Below the pieces are notes generated by a model. It was not told the origin of the DNA. It saw only the letters and a program-made list of their open reading frames with translations, and ran no database searches. Position numbers and translations under genes: made by a program. Source: Accumulibacter sp. (GTDB taxonomy: Bacteria > Pseudomonadota > Gammaproteobacteria > Burkholderiales > Rhodocyclaceae). From it: 38,815 nt of DNA. The stretch is taken from positions 1 to 38,815 of the forward strand of contig NZ_JAMTDQ010000008.1 of the NCBI RefSeq assembly GCF_023806635.1, given 5' to 3'. Positions within the stretch are counted from its first letter, which is position 1. Every line of letters starts with the position of its first letter. Shown here piece after piece: positions 11,602-35,164 of this stretch.

Positions 11602-11615
11602 TTGACATGCATCAA
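11602..11615 (+). promoter_or_regulatory. FNR/DNR-type box in the COX15-oxidase divergent gap
   Basis: TTGACATGCATCAA matches the FNR-family consensus TTGAT-N4-ATCAA with one mismatch per 10 fixed bases. A -10-like TATTCT at 11639-11644 puts the box centre at about -42 from the predicted start (~11651), the usual activating position. The transcript would lead into the 49-aa peptide at 11737 with a leader of about 85 bases. The rest of the 305-base gap holds no other gene. Confidence 0.6.
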
Positions 11616-11916: not shown

Positions 11917-12465
11917 ATGAGTGCAATTCTGCCGCCATCCGAGCGGCTCTGGTGGAAGCAGCCCATCGACAAGGTCGAATGGGCATGGATCGCGATCGCC
12001 TTCGTCTGGGGCATGGTCATGTTCGCGATGATGATTTACTGGCACATCTACGGCAAGCAGAACCTGTCCAACGAGGCCTACCGGACCACGCCCGAGATGT
12101 TCGCCGCGAAGGCCGAGAAGTTCGTCGCCGAAAACACGATCCGCACCGAAAAAGGCCTGAATGGGGAAGACATCCCGGTCGTCAAGGTACCCGCCGGTGG
12201 CGCGGGCTACCTGATTGCCCGGCTGTGGGCGTGGTATCCGATCCTCGAGCTCGAGGAGGGCCAGACCTACCGCATCCATCTGTCTTCCCTCGACTACAAC
12301 CATGGCTTCTCGCTGCAGCCGGTCAACATCAACATCCAGGTGATCCCTGGCTATGAGCATGTCGTCAAGATGACCCCGACCAAGAAAGGCACCTACGCCA
12401 TCGTCTGCAACGAATACTGCGGCATCGGCCACCACTCGATGCTGGGCCGTATCTACGTCAAATAA
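11917..12465 (+). CDS. Heme-copper reductase subunit II with CuA site
   Basis: This 182-aa protein has one N-terminal membrane helix (~22-42) and a periplasmic cupredoxin domain. The CuA ligands are complete: C164-x3-C168-x3-H172-x2-M175 in CNEYCGIGHHSM, with the earlier histidine in DYNHGFSLQP. It takes electrons from a soluble cytochrome c or copper protein and passes them to subunit I. One helix and short length are typical of B-family (ba3-like) subunit II rather than the two-helix A-family form. An AGGGAG site precedes ATG 11917. It lies between the 49-aa peptide and subunit I in an evident operon. Confidence 0.9.
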   Translation: MSAILPPSERLWWKQPIDKVEWAWIAIAFVWGMVMFAMMIYWHIYGKQNLSNEAYRTTPEMFAAKAEKFVAENTIRTEKGLNGEDIPVVKVPAGGAGYLIARLWAWYPILELEEGQTYRIHLSSLDYNHGFSLQPVNINIQVIPGYEHVVKMTPTKKGTYAIVCNEYCGIGHHSMLGRIYVK

Positions 12466-12481
12466 GGGGGGAAAACAACCG

Positions 12482-14176
12482 ATGGCAACGACTTACCGTA
12501 CCTGCCCCGTCTCCGGGCTGCAGTTCGAGGACCAGGCCGAGAAGCTGATGCGCTGGAACGCCGTCGCCGGCGTCCTCGCACTGCTCGCCGGCGGCATCAC
12601 CGCGCTGCTGGTGATCCTCACCCGCTGGCCAGCGATCAAGCTGCTGCCGGCCGACCAGTTCTACCTGATCCTCACCGCGCACGGCATCGACATGCTGATC
12701 CTGTGGATCATCTTCTTCGAAATGGCCGTGCTCTATTTCGCCTCGTCGACACTCCTGCGCTGCCGGCTGGCGGCACCGAAGGTCGCCTGGGCGGCGTTCT
12801 GGCTGATGGTCGTCGGCAGCATCATGACCAACGTCGCCATCTTCCAGGGCGAGTCGAGCGTGATGTTCACCTCCTACGTGCCGATGCAGGCAGCGCCGCA
12901 TTTCTACCTCGGCATCATCCTGTTCGCGGTCGGCGCGCTGATCGGCTGCGGCATCTTCTTCGCCACGCTGGTGATCGCCAAGCGTGAGAAGACCTACAGC
13001 GGATCGATCCCGCTCGTCACCTTCGGCGCGCTGACGGCAGCGATCATCGCCACCTTCACGATCCTGGCCGGTGCCGGCATCCTGCTGCCGACCTTCCTCT
13101 GGTCGGTCGGCATCATCAAGGAGATCGACGCCCAGTTGTACCGCATGGTGTGGTGGGGACTCGGACACTCGTCGCAGCAGATCAACGTCTCGGCGCACGT
13201 CGCCATCTGGTACCTGATCGCCGCCGTCGTCTTCGGCGCCAAGCCGCTGTCCGAGAAAGTCTCGCGCTTCGCCTTCCTGCTCTACATCCTGTTCCTGCAA
13301 CTCGCCAGTGCGCACCACCTGCTCTCCGACCCCGGCATGAGCGCCGAGTGGAAGGTGCTCAACACGTCGTACTTCATGTACTTCGCGGTGATGGCATCGA
13401 TGATCCACGGCTTCACGGTTCCCGGCGCGATTGAGGCGGCACAGCGACGCAAGGGCTACACCAACGGGCTCTTCGAATGGCTGCGCAAGGCACCGTGGGG
13501 CAACCCGGTGTTCTCAGGCATGTTCATCTCGCTCGTCAGCTTCGGCTTCCTCGGCGGCATCTCCGGCGTCGTCCTCGGGACCGAGCAGATCAACATGCTG
13601 ATGCACAACACCTTCTACGTTCCGGGCCACTTCCACACGACAGTCGTCACCGGCACGACGCTGGCCTTCATGGCCGTCACCTACCTGCTGGTGCCGGTGC
13701 TCTTCAAGCGCGAGATGATCCTGCCGAAGCTGTGCCAGATCCAGCCCTACCTGTTCGGCATCAGCATGTCGATCCTCGGCCTGGTGATGATGGGCGCCGG
13801 CACGCTCGGCGTCTCGCGCCGGCACTGGGACATGGCCTTCTCCGGGGCCCCGTTCCAGTATGAGTGGCCGGGTGCCGCCTACCTGATGATGGGCCTGACC
13901 GGAATCTTCGGCCTCATCGCCGTCATCGGCGGCGGTCTCTGGATCCTGCTGGTGGTCGGTTCGCTGCTCTTCGGCAAGAAACTCGACGGTGGCAAGGTCT
14001 CCGACAAGCCGACGCCGCTGCCGGCCAACACGCAGGCGGCTTCGGCCGTGTCGCACGGTCACGATCACGTCCCGGTTCCGGGCACCGTCGTCCTCGCACT
14101 CCTGCTCTTCGTCTGCTTCGTGCTGTACTATTTCGTGAACTGGAAGTACCTGTCGGAAGTCTGGCTGTTGAGCTGA
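12482..14176 (+). CDS. Heme-copper reductase subunit I, B-family, NOR-like active site
   Basis: This 564-aa protein has about 13 to 14 membrane helices. The helix II histidine (LTAHGIDML) is a low-spin heme ligand. CuB/FeB ligands are H229 (WWGLGHSSQQ) and H278/H279 (ASAHHLLSDPG). Helix X supplies heme ligands H383 and H385 (VPGHFHTTV). The tyrosine that O2 reductases of the A and B families carry four residues after the first active-site histidine is replaced by Gln233, with another Gln at 232. Loss of this tyrosine is a mark of the NO-reducing lineages derived from B-family oxidases (such as eNOR and sNOR). Together with CuA subunit II and an FNR-type box, an NO reductase is a real possibility; a microaerobic oxidase cannot be excluded. 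The C-terminus has a His-rich linker (SHGHDH) and one extra helix. Confidence 0.85.
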   Translation: MATTYRTCPVSGLQFEDQAEKLMRWNAVAGVLALLAGGITALLVILTRWPAIKLLPADQFYLILTAHGIDMLILWIIFFEMAVLYFASSTLLRCRLAAPKVAWAAFWLMVVGSIMTNVAIFQGESSVMFTSYVPMQAAPHFYLGIILFAVGALIGCGIFFATLVIAKREKTYSGSIPLVTFGALTAAIIATFTILAGAGILLPTFLWSVGIIKEIDAQLYRMVWWGLGHSSQQINVSAHVAIWYLIAAVVFGAKPLSEKVSRFAFLLYILFLQLASAHHLLSDPGMSAEWKVLNTSYFMYFAVMASMIHGFTVPGAIEAAQRRKGYTNGLFEWLRKAPWGNPVFSGMFISLVSFGFLGGISGVVLGTEQINMLMHNTFYVPGHFHTTVVTGTTLAFMAVTYLLVPVLFKREMILPKLCQIQPYLFGISMSILGLVMMGAGTLGVSRRHWDMAFSGAPFQYEWPGAAYLMMGLTGIFGLIAVIGGGLWILLVVGSLLFGKKLDGGKVSDKPTPLPANTQAASAVSHGHDHVPVPGTVVLALLLFVCFVLYYFVNWKYLSEVWLLS

Positions 14177-14188
14177 CCCGGCACTCGT

Positions 14189-14254
14189 CCCCGCGCCGCC
14201 GGCGCGGGGGCCTGCTTCAATCGGGCCTGGCCGACAGGCCGGATTGAAGCAGGC
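14189..14254 (+). terminator. Two adjacent hairpins between subunit I and ctaB
   Basis: First, CCCCGCGCC-GCC-GGCGCGGGG (14189-14209), a perfect 9-bp stem. Directly next to it, a larger one at 14210-14254: outer arms GCCTGCTTCAATC and GATTGAAGCAGGC pair perfectly, and inner GGCCTG/CAGGCC extends the stem past one mismatch to nearly 20 bp. There is no T-run. It starts 13 bases after the subunit I stop and may terminate or protect the reductase transcript. Confidence 0.65.
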
Positions 14255-14306
14255 ACGCATCCTTCGCCACCGCTTCATTCACCTGATCGCCACGCTATCG
14301 ACGCCA

Positions 14307-15203
14307 ATGCAATCGACACTCCCATCGAACAGCACTCCCGGCCTCCCCATCCGTGCCATTCTGGGCGTCTTCAAGCTGCGCATCGGCGTCGTCATCACCT
14401 TCACCGCACTGGCCGGCCTGGCCGTCAGCGCCGGTCCCTCGCTGACTCCACTGCAGTTGCTCGTCCTGGCCCTCTCGGTGCTGGTCTCGTCAGCCAGCGC
14501 CGGTGCCTTCAACCAGTATTACGAGCACGACAGCGATCACCTGATGGCGCGCACCAGCAAGCGCCCCTTCGTCACCGGCCAGCTCCGCCACGGTCCCGTC
14601 TGGCTGCTGCTGATCGCCGCGCTGATGACGCTCTCGGTCGGCGCCGCATGGATCGCGCTCAATGCCTGGTCGGCCCTGTTCGTCTTCCTCGGCGCCTTCT
14701 TCTACGCCATCGTCTATACCGTCTGGCTGAAGCGCCGCACCTGGCTGAACATCGTCTTCGGCGGACTAGCCGGCAGCTGGGCAGTCCTCGCTGGCGCCAC
14801 GGCCGCCGATCCGCAGCTCGGCGCCGTGCCGCTGGCACTGGCTCTGGTCCTCTTCCTGTGGACGCCGCCGCACTTCTGGAGCCTGGCGATCGCTTTCCGT
14901 GACGACTACGCCGCCGCCGGCGTACCGATGCTGCCGGTGGTCGTCGGCGACCAGCGCGCCGCCAACACGATCTTCGCCAGCACCCTGGCGCTGGTCGCCG
15001 CCAGCCTGCTGCCGCTCGCCTTCGGCCTCGGCCCGATCTACTTCGCCGGCGCGGCGATCGGTGGCTTCCTGTTCATCCAGAAAGCCTGGCTGCTGACCCG
15101 GCAGCCCAATCGCAAGACGGCGATGGTCTGCTTCCACGCCTCACTGATGCAGTTGACCCTGGTCCTTTGCGCCGCCATCGTCGACACGCAGTTGCACTTC
15201 TGA
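14307..15203 (+). CDS. ctaB: Protoheme IX farnesyltransferase (heme O synthase)
   Basis: This 298-aa UbiA-type prenyltransferase has about eight to nine helices and attaches farnesyl to heme B, giving heme O, the substrate of COX15. The substrate-binding motif is NQYYEHDSDHLMARTSKRP near residue 67; the first acidic position is Glu instead of the usual Asp. The second conserved loop is LFLWTPPHFWSLAI with an RDDYAAAGVPMLPVV segment. The ATG at 14307 is chosen because an upstream in-frame TTG lies inside the hairpin; the ribosome site is poor. The SCO gene follows closely. With the two CtaA-type proteins, this completes heme A synthesis in the window. Confidence 0.94.
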   Translation: MQSTLPSNSTPGLPIRAILGVFKLRIGVVITFTALAGLAVSAGPSLTPLQLLVLALSVLVSSASAGAFNQYYEHDSDHLMARTSKRPFVTGQLRHGPVWLLLIAALMTLSVGAAWIALNAWSALFVFLGAFFYAIVYTVWLKRRTWLNIVFGGLAGSWAVLAGATAADPQLGAVPLALALVLFLWTPPHFWSLAIAFRDDYAAAGVPMLPVVVGDQRAANTIFASTLALVAASLLPLAFGLGPIYFAGAAIGGFLFIQKAWLLTRQPNRKTAMVCFHASLMQLTLVLCAAIVDTQLHF

Positions 15204-15223
15204 CCCGTGACGGACCACGTGCC

Positions 15224-16156
15224 GTGATTCGACAAAAGGTCCGGCCTCGCCCCCCGCCGACCGCCCGACTGCTGCGGCTCCGCGCAGCGCTGCTCGGCTT
15301 CCTCGCCACCTTGCTGGTGCTGGCTGCAAGCCCGCTGCGCGCCGATGAGGCGGCCAGCGACAAGCCCAGACTCACCGCCCGACCGCAGGGCGCCAGCGGC
15401 GGCCTGACGCTGACCACGCTCGACGAGAAGGCGGCGTTCGCGCTGTCGCAGGCCGCCGTCGGCAAGCAGGTCGTCGATTTCGTCCTCCTCGACCGCCAGG
15501 GACGACCGGTCGAACTGTCGCGTTATCGCGGCAAGCCGCTCGTCGTCACCTTCATCTACACCGCCTGCTTCCAGGTCTGCCCAACGATCACGCGCAACCT
15601 GCAGAAAGCCGTCGACACGACGGTCAGCGTCATGGGTGCCGATCGCTTCAACGTCATCAGCATCGGGTTCAACCAGCCCTTCGATTCGCCGGCTGCACTG
15701 GCGGACTTTGCCCGGCAGTATGGCATCCGCCTTCCGAACTGGGAGTTCCTCAGCCCGGCTGCGGCGATCGTCGGCGAACTGACGAGCAACTTCGGCTTCA
15801 GCTACGTCGCCACACCGGCCGGCTTCGACCACATCAACCAGGTGACGCTGGTGGATGCCGAAGGGCGGATCGTCCGCCAGGTCTACGGCGAGAAGTTCAC
15901 CGCCGAAGACCTCGCCGAACCGCTCAAGCTGCTGATCACCGGCTCGGCGATCCCGCCCGAGGTCGGCACGCTGCGGGAGATCATGGAGCGTGTGCGCATC
16001 CTCTGCTCGATCTACGATCCCGTCACCGGCCGCTACCGCACCAACTACTCGCTCTACTTCCAGTTTGCCGGCTTCATCACCTTTGTCGGCTTCCTGATCT
16101 ACCTGTCGATCAACTTCTGGAAGAACCGGCGCCGCGGTGAAGGTGAGGCGCACTGA
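15224..16156 (+). CDS. SCO1/SenC copper chaperone, membrane-anchored at both ends
   Basis: This 310-aa protein (from GTG 15224) has the thioredoxin-fold SCO domain with the copper ligands C115 and C119 (TACFQVCP) and H203 (FDHINQVTL). These deliver or reduce copper for the CuA centre of subunit II. An N-terminal hydrophobic segment (~20-40) is a signal or anchor. Unusually, a second helix at the C-terminus (about residues 280-300, ending NFWKNRRR) should anchor it again. The GTG start is inferred, since an upstream TTG at 15167 would overlap ctaB by 37 bases. The location after ctaB fits assembly of the adjacent reductase. Confidence 0.88.
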   Translation: MIRQKVRPRPPPTARLLRLRAALLGFLATLLVLAASPLRADEAASDKPRLTARPQGASGGLTLTTLDEKAAFALSQAAVGKQVVDFVLLDRQGRPVELSRYRGKPLVVTFIYTACFQVCPTITRNLQKAVDTTVSVMGADRFNVISIGFNQPFDSPAALADFARQYGIRLPNWEFLSPAAAIVGELTSNFGFSYVATPAGFDHINQVTLVDAEGRIVRQVYGEKFTAEDLAEPLKLLITGSAIPPEVGTLREIMERVRILCSIYDPVTGRYRTNYSLYFQFAGFITFVGFLIYLSINFWKNRRRGEGEAH

Positions 16157-16160
16157 CGAG

Positions 16161-16643
16161 ATGCAGCGCTTCACCATCTCGCTCGAGGCACCACTGGCGG
16201 AAGCGTTCGACGGACTGATCCGCAGCAAGGGCTACCGCTCGCGTTCGGAGGCGATCCGTGACCTGCTGCGGCAGCAACTCGGTACGCATCAGTTGCAGCA
16301 TGACGAAGCACCATACTGCATCGCCACCCTTTCCTACATCTACAACCACCATCAGCGCGAACTGTCCGAGCGCCTGACTGCGTTGCAGCACCGCCACCAC
16401 GACCTGACGCTGTCGACGATGCATGCCCACCTGGATCACGACAACTGCGTCGAAACGGTGTTCCTGCGGGGACCGACGAAGGCCGTGCGCGAGTTCGCCG
16501 ACGCGCTGCTTGCCGAACGTGGTGTTCGCCACGGCCAGCTCAACCTGGTACCGGCAGAACTCGTCCAGGAGCCGCATCAGCACCAGTCAGCGACCGGCAG
16601 CGGCGCCATCCTGACGCACGTCCATAGCACGCCGAAGACCTGA
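16161..16643 (+). CDS. nikR: NikR-type nickel-responsive regulator
   Basis: This 160-aa protein has an N-terminal ribbon-helix-helix DNA-binding domain (MQRFTISLEAPLAEAF, then SRSEAIRDLLR) and a C-terminal ACT-like metal domain. The high-affinity nickel ligands appear conserved: H77, H88, H90 and C96 in QHRHH and STMHAHLDHDNC. NikR represses nickel uptake genes in other bacteria. No nickel transporter or hydrogenase is seen here; the gene follows the SCO stop by four bases, so it is transcribed with copper and heme assembly genes. The C-terminal ~20 residues are extended and His-rich. The ATG at 16161 gives the canonical start. Confidence 0.9.
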   Translation: MQRFTISLEAPLAEAFDGLIRSKGYRSRSEAIRDLLRQQLGTHQLQHDEAPYCIATLSYIYNHHQRELSERLTALQHRHHDLTLSTMHAHLDHDNCVETVFLRGPTKAVREFADALLAERGVRHGQLNLVPAELVQEPHQHQSATGSGAILTHVHSTPKT

Positions 16644-16737: not shown

Positions 16738-16779
16738 TTGACCCGTGTCAATTCGCCGCACGAGGGCAATCAATATAAT
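16738..16779 (+). promoter_or_regulatory. FNR/DNR-type class II promoter of the cytochrome b module
   Basis: TTGACCCGTGTCAA (16738-16751) is a perfect dyad of the FNR/DNR half-site TTGAC. A perfect TATAAT lies at 16774-16779, so the predicted start is about 16786 and the box is centred at -41.5, the classical position for activation by FNR-family proteins. No -35 hexamer is needed or seen. The leader is ~36 bases to the GTG at 16822. Confidence 0.75.
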
Positions 16780-16821: not shown

Positions 16822-18393
16822 GTGAGTTTCCACAGCATTCTGCGCAAGGGCGCGAGCAGCGTCTTCCTGCGCATCGAAGAGGCTCTCGACGGTCCTTTCG
16901 GCGGCGCCGACAATCCGCTGCGCCATCTCGGCGCCCTCGGCCTCTACCTGCTTTGGATCATCGTCGGCAGCGGTCTCTATCTGTACACCGTGCTCGATAC
17001 CGGCATCGACGCCGTCTATCGATCCATCGGCGATCTGTCACGCGAGCAGTGGTATTTTGGCGGCGTCCTGCGCAGCCTGCACCGCTATGCCTCAGACGGC
17101 TTCATGCTGGTGATGACGCTGCACCTGATGCGCGAATGGTGCTACGGGCGCTACCACGGCTTCCGCCTCTACTCGTGGATGACCGGTGTGCCGCTGCTCT
17201 GGCTGGCGTACGTCAGCGGCATCGGCGGTTACTGGATCGTCTGGGATCAGCTCGCGCAGGTCTCGGCCACCGCGACGGCCGAACTGCTCGACTGGCTGCC
17301 GATCTTCAGTGAGCCTTCGGCACGCAACTTCCTGACACCCGACTCGATCAGCGACCGTTTCTTCACCATGCTGGTATTCATCCATATCGGCGTGCCACTG
17401 CTGCTGATCCTCGGCCTCTGGGCGCACGTGCATCGCATCAGCCACGTCGACCACCTGCCAAGCAAGCGGGTGATGCTGGCGACGCTGCTGGCGCTGCTTC
17501 TCCTCTCGCTGGTGCAGCCGGCGCTCAGCAACCCGCCAGCCAACCTGGCGATGATTCCCGGCGCACTGGACTTCGACTGGTTCATCCTCTTCATCCATCC
17601 ACTCACCGACCTCACGTCGCCAGCGCTCGTCTGGCTGCTCCTCCTCGCCGTCACGGCGCTGCTCTTCGCCCTCCCCTTGTTGCCCCACCCCGCACCGGAG
17701 CCGGTAGCACTCGTCGATCCGGCCAACTGCACCGGCTGCGATCGCTGCCTCGCCGACTGCCCCTACGCTGCGATCGCCATGCAACCGCACCCGTTGCGCC
17801 CGGGTTTCAAGCTCGCCGTCGTCGATGGCGACCTCTGCGCAGGCTGTGGCATCTGCGCCGGCTCGTGCCCGTCGTCTACCCCCTTCCGCCGCCGCGACAA
17901 ACTGGTCACCGGCATCGACATGCCACAGCAACCGATCCATCTGCTGCGCGAGCAACTCGAGCAGGAGTTGGCGAGGCTCAGCGGCCCGCAGCGCGTCGTC
18001 GTCTTCGCCTGCGCCCGTGGCGCCGACGCCAGTGGGCTGGCGGCTACCGACACGGCGGTGATGCCGCTCCTGTGCACCGGCATGCTGCCACCATCCTTTG
18101 TCGAGTACGCGCTGCGCGGTGGCGCCGACGGCGTGCTGGTGAACACCTGCCGCCCGGGAGGCTGTGACTTCAGGCTCGGCGATCGCTGGACGCGCGAGCG
18201 CCTCGCTGGCGAGCGCGAACCGCACCTGCGGCAAACGGTCCCCGCCGCCCGACTGCAGCTTTGTGCCGCTGCCGCCGGCGATGAACCCGCGCTCAGCGCT
18301 GCCCTGAACGACCTCAGGGCACGCCTCGGGAACGAGGCGCTGGCCAGCGACAGACTTCCACCCTATCTGCGGAGAGTGTCCAACCATGCCTAA
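16822..18393 (+). CDS. Cytochrome b - 2[4Fe-4S] ferredoxin - FlpD/MvhD fusion
   Basis: This 523-aa protein has three parts. Residues ~1-290 are a cytochrome b/b6 N-terminal unit with two His pairs 14 residues apart (LHRYASDGFMLVMTLH and IHIGVPLLLILGLWAHVH), holding two b hemes and a quinone site. Residues ~300-355 are a bacterial ferredoxin with C303/306/309/313 and C339/342/345/349. Residues ~385-475 resemble the FlpD/MvhD delta subunit (VVFACARGADASG, LLCTGMLPPSF, GGADGVLVNTCRPGGCDF), which in methanogens links hydrogenase or formate dehydrogenase to electron-bifurcating heterodisulfide reductase. The GTG at 16822 is the likely start, though its ribosome site is weak. Predicted to move electrons between the quinone pool and a low-potential cytosolic carrier; the direction is unknown. 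It overlaps the next gene by 8 bases. Confidence 0.82.
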   Translation: MSFHSILRKGASSVFLRIEEALDGPFGGADNPLRHLGALGLYLLWIIVGSGLYLYTVLDTGIDAVYRSIGDLSREQWYFGGVLRSLHRYASDGFMLVMTLHLMREWCYGRYHGFRLYSWMTGVPLLWLAYVSGIGGYWIVWDQLAQVSATATAELLDWLPIFSEPSARNFLTPDSISDRFFTMLVFIHIGVPLLLILGLWAHVHRISHVDHLPSKRVMLATLLALLLLSLVQPALSNPPANLAMIPGALDFDWFILFIHPLTDLTSPALVWLLLLAVTALLFALPLLPHPAPEPVALVDPANCTGCDRCLADCPYAAIAMQPHPLRPGFKLAVVDGDLCAGCGICAGSCPSSTPFRRRDKLVTGIDMPQQPIHLLREQLEQELARLSGPQRVVVFACARGADASGLAATDTAVMPLLCTGMLPPSFVEYALRGGADGVLVNTCRPGGCDFRLGDRWTRERLAGEREPHLRQTVPAARLQLCAAAAGDEPALSAALNDLRARLGNEALASDRLPPYLRRVSNHA

Positions 18394-18883
18394 ACCCACC
18401 GCCATCATCGGCCAGGTGATCCTCTACGGTGCATTTGCCGCCTTCATTGGCTACTTCGCCACCTCGCCGAAGTACCGACAGATTGCCGACGATGTCGCGC
18501 TGATCAAGCTGTCGATCAGCCACCTCGGCGACCGTGAATGCCGCAAGCGAACGCCCGAGGAACTGGCGAAGATGCCGCCCAACATGCGCGCGCCGATGGA
18601 CTGCCCGCGTGAGCGCTCGGACATCCGGCTGGAAATGGACCTCGACGGGCAACCGGTCCTGCGGACGGTGATGCATCCGACCGGCCTCTACAAGGACGGC
18701 GTGTCGACGATCTACCGGCGCTTCGAGGTCAAGGCCGGCAGCCACCAGATCGCCGTGCGGATGAACGACAACCTCGTCAAGCCCGGCTTCAACTTCGTCA
18801 AGGAAGGGGAGATCAACCTTAGACCGGGCCAGGTGATGGTGATCGACTTCAACCCCGACAAGGGTGGCCTGTTCTTCCAGTGA
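18386..18883 (+). CDS. Membrane-anchored protein of unknown function between two cytochrome b genes
   Basis: I do not recognise this 165-aa protein. One N-terminal helix (~6-25, IIGQVILYGAFAAFIGYFA) is followed by a soluble domain, probably periplasmic. The domain has two cysteines (DRECRKRTPEE and APMDCPRER) that could form a disulfide, a beta-rich centre and a GGLFFQ end. GGAGAG at 18371-18376 and the overlap with the preceding stop support the ATG at 18386. Its fixed place between two cytochrome b fusion genes suggests an assembly factor or an extra subunit of a complex they form. It has no heme-binding CxxCH or other cofactor motif. Confidence 0.8.
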   Translation: MPKPTAIIGQVILYGAFAAFIGYFATSPKYRQIADDVALIKLSISHLGDRECRKRTPEELAKMPPNMRAPMDCPRERSDIRLEMDLDGQPVLRTVMHPTGLYKDGVSTIYRRFEVKAGSHQIAVRMNDNLVKPGFNFVKEGEINLRPGQVMVIDFNPDKGGLFFQ

Positions 18884-18946
18884 TCGCCGCGCGCGACGAA
18901 CGGCCGTCTCCCGACGCCTCCCCAACCTCCTGAGCCGACATCGATC

Positions 18947-20860
18947 ATGGTCAAGTTCCTGCAAGAAATCCTGCGCTGGCTGTTCATGCGCATCGAGAAC
19001 GTCTTCAACGTCGCCTTCGGCGAAAAGCTGAACCCCTTCTACCACCTCGGAACGATCAGCTTCTGGCAGTTCTGGTTGCTGGTCATCTCGGGCCTGTACC
19101 TCTACATCTTCGCCGACACCGGCGTACACGACGCCTTCGAGTCGGTCGAGAGCATCACCCACGACCAGTGGTGGGCCGGCGGCATCCTGCGCAGCATCCA
19201 CCGCTACGCCACCGACGGCATGATCCTGACGATGCTGCTGCACATGCTGCGGCACTTCGCCTACGACCGCTATCGCGGCTTCCGCTCGTTCTCGTGGCTC
19301 ACCGGGGTCGCCCTGCTGTGGCTGATCTACATCGCCGGCGTCAATGGTTTCATGCTCGTCTGGGACAAGCTGGCGCAATTCGTCGTCATCGCCACGGCCG
19401 AGTGGTTCGACGTCCTGCCGATGTTCAACGGCACGCTGATCCGCAACTTCCTCTACGTCGAGAGCGTCAACAGCCGGCTGTTCACGCTGCTCGCCTTCAT
19501 CCACATCGGCGCGCCGCTGATCGTCGCCTTCATCATGTGGGTGCATGTGCAGCGCGTGCCGCGCGCCCACATCAATCCGCCGCGGCCGATCGCCATCGCC
19601 GTGACGCTGATGTTCCTGGTGCTGTCACTGGTCAAGCCGATCCTCAGCCAGGGCGGCGAAGCCGACATGTCGGTGGTGCCGACCAACATCGACTTCGACT
19701 GGTTCGAGCTGCCGGTTCTGGCGCTGGTCTACGTGACCAACCCGCTGCATCTCTGGTACTGGGTCCTCGGCCTCACGGCCCTCCTCTTCCTGGTGCCCTG
19801 GTTGCCGCCGAAGAAGCGCGGGTCGGCGCAGGCGCTGACCTCGATCACCTTCCATCCCGACCGGCGTGCGGTCAGCGCGCGCTTCGACGAGACGCTGCTC
19901 GACGCCGGCCTGCGCCAGGACATCGACCTGCCCTACGAGTGCCGCAACGGCGGTTGCGGCGTCTGCAAGTGTACCGTCCTGAACGGCCGGGTCGATCCCG
20001 GCCTCTACCAGCCGAGCGCGCTATCGACGGCGGAGCTGGCACAGGGCAAGGTCCTGATGTGCTGCGCCACGGCGCTCGAGGACGCCGAGATCGAGTACCA
20101 GGCGAGCGCGGCGCCGAAAGCCTTCCGCGAATACACCGCGAAGGTCGTGCACATGCACCGGCTGACCGACGACGTCATGCAGGTGCTGCTGCGCTTGCCC
20201 GACGGCGAGCGGATCAGTTTCAAGGCCGGCCAGTACGTGAACATCATTCTCGACGATGGCCAGCGGCGCGCCTTCTCCTTCGCCAACCCGCCGCACCAGC
20301 CCGACTTCGTCGAACTGCAGATCCGCCTGATGCCCGGCGGCCGTTTCACGACGCACGTCTTCGAAGCGATGAAGGAAGGCGACGAGCTCCGCTTCGAGGG
20401 ACCGATCGGCGATTTCACGCTGCGCGAGTCGGAGCGGCCGATCGTCTTCGTCGCCGGCGCCACGGGTTTCGCGCCGGTCAAGAGCATGGTCGAGGATGCC
20501 TTCAAACGCGGCCTGAAACGCGAGATCCATCTCTACTGGGGGGTGAAGACCCTCAAGGACCTCTACCTGCCCGAGCTGCCGGCCCGCTGGGCACGCGAGC
20601 ACAGCAACTTCCACTTCATCCCGGTGCTTTCCGAGCCGGCTCCGGAAGACCAGTGGAGTGGCCGCACCGGCCTGGTCCACGAGGCGATCCTCGCCGACTT
20701 CCCCGAACTAAAGCAGCACGAAATCTATGCCTGCGGCTCGGTGCGCATGGTCGAGGCGATCTTCCCCTTCCTGAAGCAGCATGGCGCCGAGGACGGCGCC
20801 TGTTTCTCGGATGCCTTCAGCGTCTCGGCACGATCGATGGCCTTCCAGCCGCGGCAGTAG
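18947..20860 (+). CDS. Cytochrome b - 2Fe-2S ferredoxin - FAD/NAD(P) reductase fusion
   Basis: This 637-aa protein has a cytochrome b/b6 N-terminal unit (~1-285) with His pairs 14 apart (IHRYATDGMILTMLLH and IHIGAPLIVAFIMWVH), paralogous to 16822-18393. A plant-type 2Fe-2S domain follows (C332, C337, C340 in CRNGGCGVC, last ligand C372). Then comes a ferredoxin-NADP reductase module with the flavin motif RAFSFANPP and the nucleotide motif FVAGATGFAPVKSM, ending in YACGSVRMVEAIF. The order of cofactors implies electron flow quinone-b hemes-FeS-FAD-NAD(P). As I recall, a protein of this design was proposed in Accumulibacter to pass electrons from quinol to NAD(P)+ and so permit an anaerobic TCA cycle. 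Thermodynamically this needs a low quinol potential or membrane energy. The ribosome site is weak. Confidence 0.88.
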   Translation: MVKFLQEILRWLFMRIENVFNVAFGEKLNPFYHLGTISFWQFWLLVISGLYLYIFADTGVHDAFESVESITHDQWWAGGILRSIHRYATDGMILTMLLHMLRHFAYDRYRGFRSFSWLTGVALLWLIYIAGVNGFMLVWDKLAQFVVIATAEWFDVLPMFNGTLIRNFLYVESVNSRLFTLLAFIHIGAPLIVAFIMWVHVQRVPRAHINPPRPIAIAVTLMFLVLSLVKPILSQGGEADMSVVPTNIDFDWFELPVLALVYVTNPLHLWYWVLGLTALLFLVPWLPPKKRGSAQALTSITFHPDRRAVSARFDETLLDAGLRQDIDLPYECRNGGCGVCKCTVLNGRVDPGLYQPSALSTAELAQGKVLMCCATALEDAEIEYQASAAPKAFREYTAKVVHMHRLTDDVMQVLLRLPDGERISFKAGQYVNIILDDGQRRAFSFANPPHQPDFVELQIRLMPGGRFTTHVFEAMKEGDELRFEGPIGDFTLRESERPIVFVAGATGFAPVKSMVEDAFKRGLKREIHLYWGVKTLKDLYLPELPARWAREHSNFHFIPVLSEPAPEDQWSGRTGLVHEAILADFPELKQHEIYACGSVRMVEAIFPFLKQHGAEDGACFSDAFSVSARSMAFQPRQ

Positions 20861-21215: not shown

Positions 21216-21845
21216 ATGAAAACAGCGAATCTCGTCCGGCAAGGCAGCCGCCTACCGCTTGCCGCACTGCTCGTCGTCCTTTTTCCGTTGGCAGGCCACG
21301 CTGCCGACCGCAGTGGCAAGGAGGTGGTCGATACGGTCTGCATCGCCTGCCATGGAACCGGCAAGGATGGCGCCCCGCGAATCGACGACCGGGCGGAATG
21401 GGCCAAACGGGCTGCCAAGGGGTTGGACAAGCTCAATGAGAACGCCATTACCGGGGTGCGCAAAATGCCCGCCCATGGCGGCCAGGCGGCTCTTACCGAC
21501 CTCGAGATGACGCGCGGCGTCGCCTACCTGGTCAGCGGCGGCGCGGCGGCCGATCCCCAGAAGCCTTATACGCCTGCCCGAATCCGCAGCGGCGAGCAGG
21601 TGGTCAGGGAACGCTGTCAGGAATGCCACGCCGACGGCAGGAACGGCGCGCCGAGGATCGGTGATATCGACGCCTGGAAGCCCCGCCTGCAGAAAGGTGT
21701 CGCCCCTCTGGTCAACTCAGCCATCGGTGGCCACAAGGGCATGCCGGCCCGGGGCGGCATGGCGAGCCTGAGCGACGCCGAAATCCGTGCTGCCGTGAAC
21801 TACATGGTCGGCCAGACCGCAGGCGCCGCTGTCAAACACCACTGA
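21216..21845 (+). CDS. Diheme cytochrome c5-type protein, periplasmic
   Basis: This 209-aa protein has a clear Sec signal (~1-29, ending LAGHAA). Two tandem c5-like domains follow: CIACH at C42-H46 with Met84 as likely sixth ligand (RKMPAHGG), and CQECH at C134-H138 with Met176 (KGMPARGG). The halves are clearly duplicated. It could feed electrons to the CuA subunit at 11917 or to the reductase subunit at 22523. An AGGGAGG site (21202-21208) gives a firm start. The downstream TlpA gene is convergent, its 3' end about 100 bases away. Confidence 0.9.
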   Translation: MKTANLVRQGSRLPLAALLVVLFPLAGHAADRSGKEVVDTVCIACHGTGKDGAPRIDDRAEWAKRAAKGLDKLNENAITGVRKMPAHGGQAALTDLEMTRGVAYLVSGGAAADPQKPYTPARIRSGEQVVRERCQECHADGRNGAPRIGDIDAWKPRLQKGVAPLVNSAIGGHKGMPARGGMASLSDAEIRAAVNYMVGQTAGAAVKHH

Positions 21846-21944: not shown

Positions 21945-22526
21945 TCATTCCCGCGTCAGCCGCAACAGGATCGGCTCCAGCGTCGCCTCGTCGAGCCGCC
22001 CGAGGCGGCTGCCCGCGAGCCGCCCGGCGCGGTCGATGACCACCGTGGTGGGCAGTCCGCGCACCTGCAGGGCGGGCGTCTGGCTGCCGGCCGCGTCGCC
22101 GACCAGCAGCGGGTAGGCCACCGGCGTCCGGCGGACGAAGGCCTGCATCTTCTCCGCGTCGTCGATGCCGATGCCGACGAACTGCACGCCGCGCGCTGCG
22201 TACTTCTCCTGCAGCCGCGAGAAGGCCGGCATTTCCTCGATGCACGGCGCGCACCAGCTGGCCCAGTAATTGACCACCAGCACCTTGCCGCGCCACTGTG
22301 CCATCGCCTGCGGCTTGCCGACGAGATCGGGCAGCGTCAACGCCATGATCGCGTCGGCCATCGCCTGCCCCTGCTCCGGCGGCATCGTCGCCGCCGCGAT
22401 CAGTCCCGGCGGCAGCGCGCCCGGCACCTCTGCCGGCCGCAGCAGACGATGACCGAGCCAGCCGATCGTCGCCAGCGTCGCCACGCCGGCGGCAAGCGCG
22501 AGCGCGAGTGCAATCTGCCGTCTCAT
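21945..22526 (-). CDS. TlpA/ResA-type membrane-anchored thioredoxin
   Basis: This 193-aa protein has an N-terminal helix (~5-25) and a thioredoxin-like domain with the redox pair C92/C95 in NYWASWCAPCIEEMP. It later has GLPTTVVIDRAG with the cis-proline. Proteins of this kind reduce disulfides in the periplasm, often in cytochrome c or CuA maturation. Its ATG overlaps the stop of the reductase gene upstream (ATGA), so the pair is translated together and this protein probably serves maturation of that enzyme. The open frame extends upstream to 23795, but that part is an antisense-free shadow of the reductase gene. Confidence 0.9.
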   Translation of the reverse strand: MRRQIALALALAAGVATLATIGWLGHRLLRPAEVPGALPPGLIAAATMPPEQGQAMADAIMALTLPDLVGKPQAMAQWRGKVLVVNYWASWCAPCIEEMPAFSRLQEKYAARGVQFVGIGIDDAEKMQAFVRRTPVAYPLLVGDAAGSQTPALQVRGLPTTVVIDRAGRLAGSRLGRLDEATLEPILLRLTRE

Positions 22527-23887
22527 CGCCGCTTGCCGCCAGACATCGCCTTCAGGCAGACGAGGACGAACATCAGCCCGCCGATGACGGCAATCAATCC
22601 GCCGAGCCCCATCATCCCCATGCCGATCTTCTGCGGCAGCGTCGTCAGGAACTGGTCGGCGCCGGCAACCTTGCGCTGCACGCCATAGCCGCCCGACCAC
22701 GCGAGCCCGAGGACGTGGATCAACTGCCCGGCGCCATAAACATAGGGCTGCCAGACGGCCATCGCTCCCTCGGCACGCGCGAAGCCGAGCAGCGGCAGCA
22801 GGACATAGGCAAGCCCCATGAAAGCCAGCGTCACACCGACCGTCGATCCGTGATAATGCGCCGGGATGACGACATTGACGCCGTGGATCGCGTAGCCAAG
22901 CGCGCCACCAAGAGCGAACAGGACGAAAGAGGAAACCAAGGCCGACTTCGCCGGGTCGGCTGCCGCGCCGCGCACGCGCCAAAGCGCCAGCACGCCGACG
23001 AGCAGCAGCGGCAGCATGTACGGATGGCCCCAGATCATCAGCTTGGCGAACAACTCGACATGCGGCAGTGAGCCGACCGGCACCAGCAGGTAGATGGCGA
23101 CCACGGCGAGCAGCGGCAGCGCCGCGACGACGAACATCAGCGACTGCGCACGCGGCGCGACCGGCGCCGGCGTGCCGAGCGCAGCGGCGATCCACAACCA
23201 GGCAACGATCATCAATAGCGAATGCTGGAACTGCAGCGTATGTCCGCCACCCCAGAAGATCACCTCGTAGTAGATCTGCCCCTCGACCCACGGCACCAGC
23301 CACCACGAGACGAAGAACGCCGCCAGCGAGAGCAGCGCCGCCAGCGCGCCCAGGAAGGAGCCGAGACGCAGCGGGTCGACGAGGAACGGCCGCGGCCAGG
23401 ATGTGAGCAGCGCACGCACGACGGCCAGCGTCGTCCCGGCGCCGAAAATCCACAGCGAGGCAAAGAACAGCGGCTGCTCGAGCACCGGGATGTAGTTGTT
23501 GAGAACCGGTTGCGCGCCGGGAAAGAAGGGCGACACCGTCATCAGCGCGGTGCCCAGCGCCGCCAGCGCGAAACCGCTCCAGCCGAGCCACGCCAGCCCC
23601 GGCCGACCGAGCGCCGACCAGATGACGACGGCGAAAGCCATGAACCAGACGGCCACCGACAGATCGACGTGCACCACCAGCGCGGCGCGAAAGAGGTCCT
23701 TGAGCGGGAAGACATCCTGGATCCCCGGCGTCCGCGAGAGCACCAGCAGCACCGCCAGCAGGCCGGATCCGATCAGCGCCATCACCCCGAGCCACAGCCA
23801 GGCACGCGCCAGTGCCACCGGTGTGCCGGCGACGGGCAGCGGCACGGCAACCGTCGCTGCGGGAACTGCCACCCCATGTTGATCCAT
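22523..23887 (-). CDS. Heme-copper subunit I-like protein with incomplete copper site
   Basis: This 454-aa protein has about 12 helices and the heme-copper oxidase fold. The low-spin heme pair is present: a helix II His in LVVHVDLSVAVW, and helix X PAHYHGST with H344 and H346. The active-site metal histidine H216 is in FWGGGHTLQFQH. Where oxidases have HH in helix VII it reads KLMIWGHPYML, with only H288. The position four after H216 is Phe, not Tyr. So the binuclear centre lacks a ligand and the catalytic tyrosine, which argues against ordinary O2 reduction. No subunit II lies next to it; a TlpA gene follows. It could be a divergent NO reductase or a non-catalytic sensor-like relative. ATG 23887 gives a plausible N-terminus before helix I. 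Confidence 0.75.
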   Translation of the reverse strand: MDQHGVAVPAATVAVPLPVAGTPVALARAWLWLGVMALIGSGLLAVLLVLSRTPGIQDVFPLKDLFRAALVVHVDLSVAVWFMAFAVVIWSALGRPGLAWLGWSGFALAALGTALMTVSPFFPGAQPVLNNYIPVLEQPLFFASLWIFGAGTTLAVVRALLTSWPRPFLVDPLRLGSFLGALAALLSLAAFFVSWWLVPWVEGQIYYEVIFWGGGHTLQFQHSLLMIVAWLWIAAALGTPAPVAPRAQSLMFVVAALPLLAVVAIYLLVPVGSLPHVELFAKLMIWGHPYMLPLLLVGVLALWRVRGAAADPAKSALVSSFVLFALGGALGYAIHGVNVVIPAHYHGSTVGVTLAFMGLAYVLLPLLGFARAEGAMAVWQPYVYGAGQLIHVLGLAWSGGYGVQRKVAGADQFLTTLPQKIGMGMMGLGGLIAVIGGLMFVLVCLKAMSGGKRR

Positions 23888-28938: not shown

Positions 28939-31313
<2,375 letters not shown>

Positions 31314-31327
31314 GCAGAGAAGACAGG

Positions 31328-33967
31328 ATGACGCTCCTCGAACAATCCGCCCGCATCGCGCTGGCTGCCCTCCTGCACGACGTCGGCAAGCTCGCCGAAC
31401 GCGCCGGCATCGAGCACCATGGCCGCCTCGATGCCCACCGCACGCTGTACTGCCCCTGGCAGCAGGAGACGGGAAATCCTCGCCATGGCTACCACAGCCA
31501 TGTCCATGCCGCCTTCACCGCACTCGCCTGGGACGAACTCGAAGCGACCGGCCATTTCCCGGATCTGCGACGCGACGCGCCACCGTTTGCCACCGCCGCC
31601 GACGGGCACGCGACCGACTCCGCCGTCAACGCCGCCAGTGCGCACCACCGCCCGGAAAGCTTCCTGCAATGGATCGTCGCCACCGCCGACCGCGTCGCGT
31701 CCGGCTTCGAGCGCGACGAGTTCGAGCGCCAGTACAACCGCAACAGGGAGCGCGACAACCATTACCGCGCGCGCCTGCTGACCCTGTTCGAGCAGATCGG
31801 CCGCGGCCGGGTCGCCGAAGGCGAACTCGACTCGCGCTACCCGCTGCAACCGCTCGCGCCGGCGAGCATCTTTCCGCAACCCGCCAGCGCGTGCACGCCG
31901 CGCGACGACGCCAGCGCGCGCAGCGAATACCTGGCCCTGTGGCAGGCACTGCTTGCCGGCCTGCGGCTGATTCCGCGCGCGCACCTCGCGTCGCTGCCGC
32001 TCTGGCTCGACCACTTCGACAGCCTGTGGCTGACGACGACGCACGCCATCCCGTCGGCAACGGCCTTTGGTGTCAAGCCCGAGGTCTCCCTCTACGATCA
32101 CAGCAAGGCGACCGCCGCCCTCGCGACGGCACTGTGGCGCTGGCACCGCGACGAAGACCGGTGCGATCCGCGCACCCTGCGTGAAGGCTGGTCCGACGAG
32201 AAGTTCCTGCTCGTTCAGGGCGACGTCTTCGGCATCCAGGACTTCATCTTCGCCGCCGGCGGCGCCACCCAGAAACACGCGCACAAGCTGCTGCGCGGTC
32301 GCTCCTTCCAGGTCTCGCTGTTCGCCGAATGCGCCGCGCTGAAGATCCTCGACGCCCTCGAACTGCCGCCGACCTCGCAGATCATCAACGCCGCCGGCAA
32401 GTTCCTGATCGTCGCAGCCAACACTCCCGGCACGCACGCCGCCCTCGCCCGCTGCCGGCAGCAGCTCGACGACTGGTGCCTGCGGCACACCTGCGCCGAG
32501 ATCGGCGTCGGCCTGGTGAGCACGCCGGCGTCGTGCAACGATTTTGCCGCCGGCCGTTTCGGCGCGCTGACACGGCGACTGTTCGCAGCCCTCGATACCG
32601 CCAAGCACCAGCGCTTCGACCTTTGCGCCGAGAACACCAGTTGCGCCTTCGACGGCTTTCTCGACCGCTTCGACAACACCCTCGGTGTCTGCGCCATCAA
32701 CGGCCGCCACCCTGCCGATCGCGAAGCATCGGCGCGACGGGGCTATTCGCTGTCGCGGCTGGCCGACGACCAGATCCGCATCGGCGAGGAACTCACCCGG
32801 CACGCCCGCCTGCTCGTCGCGCGCGACGCCGGCACGCTGCCGGTCCTCGGTCTCGACTACTTCGGCTACCACCTGGCGATCGTCCCCGGCGCCGAGGAAT
32901 CGGGCAGTTATGGCGAACTGGCACGCAACGGCAGCGTTCTGCGCATCTGGGATTTCGATGCGCCGGAGGCAGACGGCACGATCTGGCGCGGTCATGCCCG
33001 CCGATTCCTCAACAGCTACGTCCCGCGCTTCGATGCCGGCGACCTGCGCACACCGGACCGCTACGGCCGCTGGCAGGGCGAAGCGGAAGCGCCTGCCATC
33101 GCGGCAGTCAAGACGCTCAACCTGATCGCCTGCGAGGATCGCCAGCAAGATGGCGGCGGGGGCTGGCAGGGAGAGATTGCCCTGATGGTCCTCAAGGGCG
33201 ACATCGACAACCTCGGCAGCCTGTTCCAGCAGGGTCTGGAGCGACCGACCTTCGCCAAGATGGCTTCGCTGTCGCGTCAGGTCAACGGCTTCTTTTCGCT
33301 CTGGCTACCCTGGTTCTGCGAGCACGGGCTCGACGGGCGGCAGGTCGCCCGCTACCGCAACACCTACACGGTCTTCGCCGGCGGCGACGACTTCTTCCTG
33401 ATCGGGCCCTGGGAATCGACACTCGCGCTGGCGACGGAACTGCGCGGAAAATTCTCGGCCTACGTCGGCAATCCCGCCATCAGCTTCTCGGCCGGGCTCT
33501 GCATGGCGCACCCGAAGACGCCGGTACGGCAGCTCGCGCGCAGCGCCGAAGCAGCGCTCGCAGCAGCCAAGGAGCATCCCGGCAAGAACGCCGCAACCCT
33601 CTGGCAACACACGGTCGGCTGGGCCGACTGGCAGAGCCTGATGGGGCCGCGCCGGCGCGCGCTCGAAGCGCTGATGGAGCGTACCGGAAACCACGGCGCC
33701 GCCTTTTCCGGCGGCCTCACCTACACCCTGCTGCAGCTCTCGGACCGCGCCGGCAGCCGGCATCCCGAGGATGCCATCTGGCGCTCGCAACTGCACTACC
33801 AGCTGGCACGCTTCTTCCGTGATCGCGTCCGGGGCGACGAAGCCGCCCGCGCATGCCGGGAGCGCCTGCTGCTCGACGCCATAGGGGAAATCGGCAGCGC
33901 ACTCGGCAGCCACGGCGGCGCCTACCGCCTGCCGCTCTCGGTCCTGCTCTACCGCCAGCGCCAATAG
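31328..33967 (+). CDS. cas10: Cas10/Csm1, type III-A large subunit
   Basis: This 879-aa protein is the signature subunit. H17-D18 in LLHDVGKLAERAG starts an HD nuclease domain, which cuts single-stranded DNA in active complexes. The first palm (QGDVFGIQDFIFAAG) is followed by the second, catalytic palm with intact GGDD at residues 685-688 (VFAGGDDFFLIG), needed to make cyclic oligoadenylate from ATP. A C-terminal helical domain follows. HD and GGDD are both present, so both DNA cutting and signalling are predicted, matching the two CARF genes upstream. ATG 31328 gives MTLLEQSARIALAALLHD. A 79-base gap separates it from csm2. Confidence 0.96.
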   Translation: MTLLEQSARIALAALLHDVGKLAERAGIEHHGRLDAHRTLYCPWQQETGNPRHGYHSHVHAAFTALAWDELEATGHFPDLRRDAPPFATAADGHATDSAVNAASAHHRPESFLQWIVATADRVASGFERDEFERQYNRNRERDNHYRARLLTLFEQIGRGRVAEGELDSRYPLQPLAPASIFPQPASACTPRDDASARSEYLALWQALLAGLRLIPRAHLASLPLWLDHFDSLWLTTTHAIPSATAFGVKPEVSLYDHSKATAALATALWRWHRDEDRCDPRTLREGWSDEKFLLVQGDVFGIQDFIFAAGGATQKHAHKLLRGRSFQVSLFAECAALKILDALELPPTSQIINAAGKFLIVAANTPGTHAALARCRQQLDDWCLRHTCAEIGVGLVSTPASCNDFAAGRFGALTRRLFAALDTAKHQRFDLCAENTSCAFDGFLDRFDNTLGVCAINGRHPADREASARRGYSLSRLADDQIRIGEELTRHARLLVARDAGTLPVLGLDYFGYHLAIVPGAEESGSYGELARNGSVLRIWDFDAPEADGTIWRGHARRFLNSYVPRFDAGDLRTPDRYGRWQGEAEAPAIAAVKTLNLIACEDRQQDGGGGWQGEIALMVLKGDIDNLGSLFQQGLERPTFAKMASLSRQVNGFFSLWLPWFCEHGLDGRQVARYRNTYTVFAGGDDFFLIGPWESTLALATELRGKFSAYVGNPAISFSAGLCMAHPKTPVRQLARSAEAALAAAKEHPGKNAATLWQHTVGWADWQSLMGPRRRALEALMERTGNHGAAFSGGLTYTLLQLSDRAGSRHPEDAIWRSQLHYQLARFFRDRVRGDEAARACRERLLLDAIGEIGSALGSHGGAYRLPLSVLLYRQRQ

Positions 33968-34046
33968 GCGCCACGCCAACCGCGCAAGCTTGCCGAAGCA
34001 GACAACGCAGCCCTTTTCGCGCACCATACGCCCAGGAGATCCATTG

Positions 34047-34430
34047 ATGATGAACTTGAACGAAATCGACCTCGCCACCTGCCCGCCGGACGCCGAACTG
34101 TTCAACATGCGGGCGGAAGCGGTCGCCAACCGTCTCAACCAGGCCGCCGGCCAAGCCAACAGACCGACCCAGATCCGGCGTTTCTACGACGAACTGGTCG
34201 GCTGGCAGGAGCGGATCGACGGCGACGAGGAGAAATTCGCGCAGCACCTCGCCTTCATCAGGATGCTCAACGCCAAGGTCGCTTACGCCCAAGGCCGCCA
34301 ACTCGTCGATGAGGAGTTCGTCGGCTGGTTCCGCCGCTGCGTCGCGACCACCACCAACGCCCGGGCGCTGCACCACTTCCGGTTGCACTTCGAAGCCGTT
34401 CTCGGCTTCCTCAAGGCGCTGCGCCCCTGA
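34047..34430 (+). CDS. csm2: Csm2, type III-A small subunit
   Basis: This 127-aa all-helical protein fits the small subunit of the Csm complex, which forms the inner filament beside Csm3 along the crRNA-target duplex. RPTQIRRFYDEL and FIRMLNAKVAYAQGR are the typical segments; Csm2 families show an IRRFYdel-like stretch followed by a K-hydrophobic helix. ATG 34047 has AGGAGA at 34034-34039; the next codon pair also offers ATG 34050. It lies between cas10 and csm3, the usual place. Confidence 0.9.
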   Translation: MMNLNEIDLATCPPDAELFNMRAEAVANRLNQAAGQANRPTQIRRFYDELVGWQERIDGDEEKFAQHLAFIRMLNAKVAYAQGRQLVDEEFVGWFRRCVATTTNARALHHFRLHFEAVLGFLKALRP

Positions 34431-34450
34431 CCGACAAAGGAGACCCCACG

Positions 34451-35161: not shown

Positions 35162-35164
35162 GCG

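Follow-up and report, generated by a model that had tools for sequence, protein, structure and literature searches.

The window analysed here, a stretch of 38,815 nucleotides that corresponds to contig C8 in a 4.47 Mb assembly from Accumulibacter sp. (GCF_023806635.1), carries on its forward strand three adjacent genes, here designated A, B, and C, in which membrane cytochromes b are joined to redox tails. Gene A (16822..18393, +), with the GTG at 16822 as its start codon, encodes a b6-type cytochrome b of six predicted helices (PF00033 and PF13631), followed by a C-terminal tail with two 4Fe-4S motifs (residues 303-349; 17728..17868, +) and an FlpD domain (18046..18327, +; PF02662, over cut-off) that is the sole FlpD match of its own genome; the assignment is based on Pfam and NCBIfam matches and on conserved ligands. 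Gene B (18386..18883, +), the start of which (18386) overlaps the end of A (18393), encodes a small protein with a single hydrophobic N-terminal segment, taken as one membrane helix, and an all-beta domain read as periplasmic. Gene C (18947..20860, +) encodes a second b6-type cytochrome b (18947-19819) fused to a BenC-like Fer2/FAD/NAD(P) reductase, with Pfam matches to cytochrome b, Fer2, FAD_binding_6, and NAD_binding_1. Alignment gives 44% identity between the two cytochrome b domains, which are paralogous. The three genes at exactly 16822-20860, their domain descriptions, and the view of two paralogous cytochromes b with 4Fe-4S/FlpD and 2Fe-2S/FAD/NAD tails flanking a small anchored protein had been given in an earlier note on this DNA, and these are borne out by the Pfam matches, the alignment, and the hydrophobic segment of B. 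Comparative analysis indicates that A and B form a conserved pair and probably an accessory unit of eNOR-type nitric oxide (NO) reductase systems, the linkage of A to eNOR being very probable on genomic grounds.

The residues expected to bind cofactors are strongly conserved. With the window copies counted, the two pairs of haem-ligand His are kept in 87/87 A and 64/64 C sequences, and all eight Cys of the 4Fe-4S motifs, the four FlpD cysteines, and an Asp-Trp quinone-site motif are present in 87/87 A sequences. This motif aligns with PVWY, at the PEWY place of the bc1 of the same genome, with Asp standing for Glu as judged from the alignment. Loop charges predict that the N-terminus and the tails of A and C are cytoplasmic, and that the Asp-Trp loop is periplasmic. 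The tail of A also matches the 4Fe-4S and FlpD end of HdrA2 (NF040770, 6.1e-21, below cut-off), covering only positions 571-768 of HdrA2. In B, Cys52 and Cys73 are invariant (99/99), and a Met between them is nearly so (98/99). Pfam and NCBIfam scans gave no family for B and no copper-chaperone match, with 1 of 21 members touching Cupredoxin_1 at E 0.14, and no significant sequence relative was found, the best PDB match being an immunoglobulin at E 0.19. A structure model of a relative (A-B) shows a bc1-like fold for the cytochrome b part and an anchored all-beta domain for B; in the underlying alignment, the B rows lack the membrane helix and approximately 10% of B residues fall outside the B columns, and fold searches with this model were filled by cytochrome b, so that B was barely tested. 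The structure model of C is weak in its membrane part (mean predicted local distance difference test score, pLDDT, 68; predicted template modelling score, pTM, 0.44).

A haem-copper gene pair lies upstream of A. Its subunit II (11917..12465, +), with a CuA motif (PF00116 just over cut-off, CoxB below cut-off, conserved CNExCGIGHH), is a CuA/cupredoxin protein encoded directly upstream of subunit I, as expected of an eNOR. Subunit I (12482..14176, +) is a haem-copper protein that resembles ba3 oxidase overall, and its Gln233, four residues past His, aligns with the active-site Tyr of ba3-type oxidases. This Gln is present in every locus in which the site is covered, in line with a 70-row alignment, and a Gln in the active site is the defining feature of eNOR in PMC8756737. 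Because Gln replaces the active-site Tyr, the criterion of that study, the upstream "ba3 oxidase" gene pair is predicted to be an eNOR-type NO reductase, and A, B, and C would therefore follow an eNOR gene pair. According to PMC6446978, all clades of Accumulibacter have the ba3 oxidase genes cbaAB, and the NO reductase gene norZ is present in only a few genomes; the cbaAB "ba3 oxidase" of Accumulibacter is probably the eNOR found here.

The association between A and eNOR was surveyed in 369 genomes of the class, 398 of the phylum, and 150 of the family, the own genome being part of both wider samples and eNOR subunit I (eNOR-I) being called at E<=1e-100 (class) or E<=1e-60 (phylum). In the class sample, A was detected in 34 genomes and eNOR-I in 33, with both in 32, A only in 2, eNOR only in 1, and neither in 334. 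The two A-only genomes are a 77% complete one (G364) and one with an eNOR piece at a contig end (G408), and in the eNOR-only genome (G413) the contig stops 24 bp past eNOR-I. A similar pattern was observed across the phylum (A in 34, eNOR-I in 30, both in 29, A only in 5, eNOR only in 1, neither in 363), where the A-only genomes are G622, G638, G646, G726, and G776, and the contig of the eNOR-only genome (G575) stops 49 bp past the SCO gene. Within the family, eNOR accompanies 29 of the 32 other carriers, the misses being G004, G077, and G114; two of the genomes surveyed, G899 and G079, give identical places and seem to be one assembly.

The common gene order is eNOR-II (subunit II), eNOR-I, (CtaB), SCO, A, B. 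Two sets of loci were compared, namely loci of named genomes, including the window, and further loci hand-picked from matches. In 37 named-genome loci, the sequence upstream of A exceeds 6.5 kb; eNOR lies there on the same strand in 28 of them, and the other 9 belong to Accumulibacter or close relatives, in all of which (9/9) eNOR is encoded elsewhere in the genome. In the further loci, eNOR is found upstream of A in 15/15 with more than 6.5 kb and in 26/37 with less. B lies within 3.5 kb downstream of A in 46/46 named-genome and 50/52 further loci, the exceptions being L215, where the contig ends, and L217, where the order is C-B-A. Moreover, A and B form a single open reading frame in four loci (L086 and L091, plus L169 and L170 of a single genus). 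Promoter elements point in the same direction: an FNR/DNR-type box, TTGACCCGTGTCAA (16738..16751, +), begins 84 bp upstream of A, and another (11602..11615, +) lies 315 bp upstream of eNOR subunit II. Of 86 A genes, 52 have such a box upstream (expectation about 0.1), as do 32 of 69 eNOR-II genes (expectation 0.25), the expectations being derived from mononucleotide shuffles; the boxes are rare before C (2/71) and B (2/100); a stand-alone C in G231 (L132) is also preceded by one. The case for the linkage thus consists of gene order, co-occurrence, promoter boxes, A-B fusion, and conserved ligands, all of which are read directly from the genomes.

The distribution of C is different. The family sample contains 33 carriers of this cytochrome b, 29 of which have both A and C, although in G014 these are fragmentary; A alone is present in G037 and G095, and G004 has C at a contig start. 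The last of the 33, G017 (L155:9015-9941), encodes a cytochrome b of the C clade without a redox tail, beside B, with A missing. Among the 34 A carriers of the class, a second cytochrome b of this family was detected only in the own genome, G491, G231, and G305, and among the 34 of the phylum, C was detected in the own genome and G863 only, with at most four (class) or three (phylum) candidates scored per genome, so that a second copy could be missed. Outside the family of the window, C was found in the two wider samples only in G491, G231, where it lies at a separate place, and G863. Two fragments each in G354 and G417 are interpreted as a single gene divided between contigs. In G305, the second cytochrome b (L129:2675-5224, -) bears a CysJ-type NADPH diflavin tail instead (TIGR01931, 3.7e-164, below cut-off) and sits in the eNOR operon downstream of NORb, a divergent haem-copper-like protein, as C does in several loci. 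Tandem A copies occur in four phylum genomes of one family (G701, G726, G637, and G776; L212-L215), with FlpD tails on both copies in L212, and this tandem pair is an independent duplication.

In trees built by a quick method with midpoint root, C forms one clade and the A of C-bearing loci one group (support 100 and 97-100), and the A of C-less loci falls between them, with support 80 in one tree and not as one branch side in the other. G037, which belongs to the family of the window and lacks C, has an A that groups with C-less A, and the A of G863, which belongs to another family and has C, groups with paired A on a long branch. This subtype grouping indicates that A and C go together as matched partners in loci that hold both, and a working A/C pair in C-bearing loci is plausible as judged from these trees. 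The ancestral state appears to have been A-B alone, C being a lineage-specific added paralog, mainly in Rhodocyclales. A jump in the evolution of A at the arrival of C was considered and rejected, as a rate test against eNOR gave only modest differences and is not in itself evidence of specialisation. The median ratios for single-single, paired-paired, and paired-single comparisons were 1.77, 2.10, and 2.01 for the cytochrome b part of A, 2.22, 1.86, and 2.06 for its tail, and 2.83, 2.21, and 2.36 for B; C against single A gave 2.08, and C-C gave 1.48.

These distributions bear on the proposal of the earlier note that A and C form an obligate heterodimer, a quinol:ferredoxin/NAD(P) complex that could bifurcate or confurcate; the heterodimer, its two working quinone sites, and bifurcation go beyond what the sequence itself shows. 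The pairing has support within its range, namely the joint presence in 29/33 carriers of the family and the single paired subtype of A with a single clade of C, which recurs in G863. However, most A carriers of the class and phylum have A-B without detected C, G231 keeps C at its own place together with an A of the C-less subtype, G017 combines a tail-less C-type cytochrome b with B and no A, and a high-potential partner is missing. With at most four (class) or three (phylum) candidates scored per genome, the three-gene complex is rejected as obligate: the genes often occur apart, which is the outcome that the note had named as refuting. A bifurcating heterodimer of this kind is very unlikely, and a pairing of A and C is plausible for C-bearing loci.

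We infer complex formation, electron direction, acceptor, and physiological role of A-B(-C) from this base. We tentatively favour a Rieske-less cytochrome b unit that would feed quinone and NO reduction with electrons drawn from cytosolic carriers, a reading that could well be right but stops short of probable. Its core would be a cytochrome b of the bc1/b6f kind that carries two haems b and a periplasmic quinone-site motif and has no Rieske partner, B would serve as the anchored periplasmic subunit of this core, and the tails would act as interchangeable redox ports, FlpD/4Fe-4S in A and NAD(P)H flavin in C. Electrons would flow from inside to outside, with NAD(P)H via C, or a soluble low-potential FlpD-docking partner via A, reducing the haems b, which would then reduce quinone or an eNOR-side acceptor in a setting where NO is respired or detoxified under low oxygen. 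The tail of C is of the BenC/GcoB/NqrF kind, for which NAD(P)H is the electron donor, and transfer from NAD(P)H to haem b is favoured because it is downhill and because the known relatives of the tails take NAD(P)H electrons. A role of NAD(P)H as donor would also account for the attachment of two NAD(P)H flavoprotein modules, unrelated to each other, to cytochrome b in eNOR loci, and the CysJ-type NADPH tail of G305 favours the same direction.

Several points weigh against this interpretation. Ten carriers of A or C lack a detected eNOR (2 class, 5 phylum, and 3 family genomes), 7 of which are less than 90% complete. As read from place tables, at most 10 kb separate A from eNOR on a shared strand in 26 of 32 class genomes and 14 of 29 phylum genomes that have both, and the remaining genomes have the two on other contigs, on other strands, or farther apart; since the co-occurrence holds where the genes are far apart, it is not simply a matter of physical neighbourhood. 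No FlpD protein other than A was found in the own genome as a possible FlpD partner, the p-side quinone-site motif would also fit quinol oxidation, and passing NAD(P)H electrons to quinone in this way would forgo energy conservation through complex I. In addition, A may serve the maturation of eNOR, since SCO and CtaB share the operon. In such a role, A-B would carry reductant across the membrane to copper or thiols in the assembly of the CuA and CuB sites, which would suit both the placement of A-B after SCO and CtaB and the anchored all-beta domain of B with its two invariant Cys and nearly invariant Met. However, a cofactor chain of this complexity, together with a conserved quinone-site motif, would be unusual for a maturation factor, B matches no copper-chaperone family, and paralogs with an NAD(P)H port would be an odd addition, and we regard this role as quite unlikely.

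The opposite direction of electron flow also has to be weighed. On standard chemiosmotic principles, transfer from p-side quinol to a cytosolic tail moves electrons toward the negative side of the membrane, and the proton motive force cannot drive it; a p-side quinone site feeding the cytosolic tail therefore cannot be pushed to NAD(P)+ in this manner. Accumulibacter is reportedly endowed with a novel quinol reductase that has NAD(P) as acceptor, and this enzyme may be C. According to PMC4930944, which cites Garcia-Martin 2006 and Skennerton 2015 and names locus tags, a novel quinol reductase is present in most Accumulibacter genomes and was suggested to re-oxidise quinones reduced by succinate dehydrogenase, and a novel cytochrome is mentioned in PMC2289847. 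A quinol:NAD(P)+ reductase acting without NO, formed by C alone or with A and running the tricarboxylic acid cycle anaerobically, thus has a basis in print. Nevertheless, the tight link to eNOR across the phylum and a direction of transfer that works against the membrane potential make it highly improbable. The mechanism by which the earlier note explained uphill quinol-to-NAD(P) transfer meets the same objection, with no Rieske protein among the window proteins scanned, no other evident high-potential partner, and a genomic context of NO reduction that the note did not consider.

A third possibility is quinone bifurcation without a Rieske protein, whereby quinol would be oxidised on the p-side, one electron passing to eNOR with NO as the sink and the other via the haems b to the tails, yielding NAD(P)H or reduced ferredoxin. 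Retention of both haem-ligand pairs and of the PEWY-like Asp-Trp in 87/87 A sequences is consistent with such a scheme, which we consider unlikely overall. In a specific form, which we would likewise give little credence, B with its Cys/Met/Cys set or the CuA domain may replace the Rieske protein, so that Rieske-free b6-type bifurcation or confurcation would be coupled to NO reduction by eNOR, with the FlpD/4Fe-4S and NAD(P)H flavin heads as the low-potential branch. The scheme needs a high-potential p-side acceptor, and no high-potential one-electron centre was recognised in A, B, or C. Rieske searches gave no match on contig C8 or among the window proteins scanned, the unassigned open reading frames of other loci lying outside the scan, and no other evident high-potential p-side partner was found among the window proteins; the own genome has four Rieske matches, on C6 (two), C41, and C91, one of those on C6 beside an ordinary bc1 cytochrome b. 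With ubiquinone at about +0.10 V, the p-side acceptor would have to lie at about +0.52 V for a symmetric split to -0.32 V, a value that typical CuA does not reach. The CysJ-type tail of G305 is moreover a donor module. On the other hand, the overall span is ample, with NO/N2O (nitrous oxide) at +1.17 V in PMC10390337, and Table A3 of PMC8756737 records an open reading frame in which cytochrome b6 and FlpD occur together with a homolog of C1-type cytochrome c. In PMC12954380, bifurcation is proposed for Kuenenia complexes that combine a Rieske protein and cytochrome b with an NAD(P) oxidoreductase, and this proposal keeps bifurcation alive as an alternative to the NAD(P)H-driven unit that we favour.

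Other genes surround this unit. Between subunit I and A lie genes for haem O synthase CtaB/CyoE (14244..15203, +; TIGR01473 over cut-off), an SCO1/SenC copper-insertion protein (15167..16156, +; PF02630 over cut-off), and, between SCO and A, a NikR-type nickel regulator (16137..16643, +; Pfam/NCBIfam), which within the loci compared occurs only in the window and the nearest Accumulibacter loci, L034-L036. NORb (22523..23881, -; PF00115 below cut-off, no NCBIfam match), a membrane protein, is encoded directly downstream of B in many loci and on the opposite strand in the window; on the same strand and at most 4 kb after B, it was found in 22/36 further and 5/38 named-genome loci with more than 6 kb of downstream sequence. 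As read from the alignment, it has conserved His at the helix 2, 6, and 10 places and no conserved helix-7 His pair. An apparent NORb-C fusion in L031 was rejected, since the long open frame crosses NORb in another frame. Near C, a dihaem cytochrome c (21252-21845), seen again only in L035, and a TlpA-like protein (21945-22523) are encoded, and in L034 the terminal part of C recurs as fragments at 13892-14018, some 2 kb downstream from the intact gene. Among named contigs, that of Candidatus Accumulibacter adjunctus comes nearest, with 98% identity in C. Farther along the window (28939-38771), type III CRISPR-Cas genes encode an NE0113-type protein, Cas10 (Csm1), a RAMP protein, and Cas6. The idea that eNOR is the sole NO reductase of this genome was discarded, as contig C85 encodes a cNOR NorB (C85:319-1605; L225) close to solved structure 3o0r (E 1.1e-217), with a binning error possible; according to PMC6446978, none of the Accumulibacter genomes studied there has norBC.

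In the literature searched, no description of A-B with eNOR was found beyond the domain list in Table A3 of PMC8756737, where RME88945.1 (cytochrome b6, DMSO-reductase-beta-like (dimethyl sulfoxide), and FlpD) is listed uncommented beside a C1 cytochrome homolog; subscription papers and supplements lay outside this search and may describe it. A-B thus represents a conserved eNOR companion that we nowhere found interpreted, and offers a testable answer to how eNOR is tied to the electron carriers of the cell. Recognition of the Accumulibacter "ba3 oxidase" as a probable NO reductase is also relevant to N2O release from wastewater plants. A single cytochrome b core with exchangeable cytosolic heads would provide a clean system for studying bc1-like function without a Rieske protein, and, if the Rieske-free bifurcation reading were true, the complex would amount to a natural b6f analogue that incorporates ferredoxin and FNR.

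The unit can be compared with several known systems. With cytochrome bc1/b6f, A and C share a cytochrome b with two haem-ligand His pairs, but no Rieske or c1/f subunit was detected among the operon proteins of the window, Asp stands at the place of the motif's Glu, the cytochrome b part stops after the sixth helix, and cytosolic redox tails are attached. The Kuenenia complexes (Kuste4569-4574 and Kustd1480-1485), as presented in PMC12954380, likewise combine a b6-like cytochrome b with a cytosolic NAD(P) oxidoreductase in nitrogen-oxide metabolism, and the tail of C is also an NAD(P) oxidoreductase, its cytosolic side being deduced from loop charges; however, they have a Rieske protein, multihaem cytochromes, and a separate subunit IV, whereas A and C are single-chain fusions without Rieske and with eNOR as partner. 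The upstream pair shares with eNOR the active-site Gln and CuA subunit II, and A-B is a further pair absent from the accessible eNOR descriptions. With the FlpD modules of HdrA2 and Mvh-Hdr, A shares the 4Fe-4S and FlpD end, including the four FlpD Cys, but it lacks the HdrA flavin domain, and its tail is joined to a cytochrome b. Finally, the tail of C is of the BenC/GcoB type and that of G305 of the CysJ type, both being fused here to a dihaem membrane cytochrome b.

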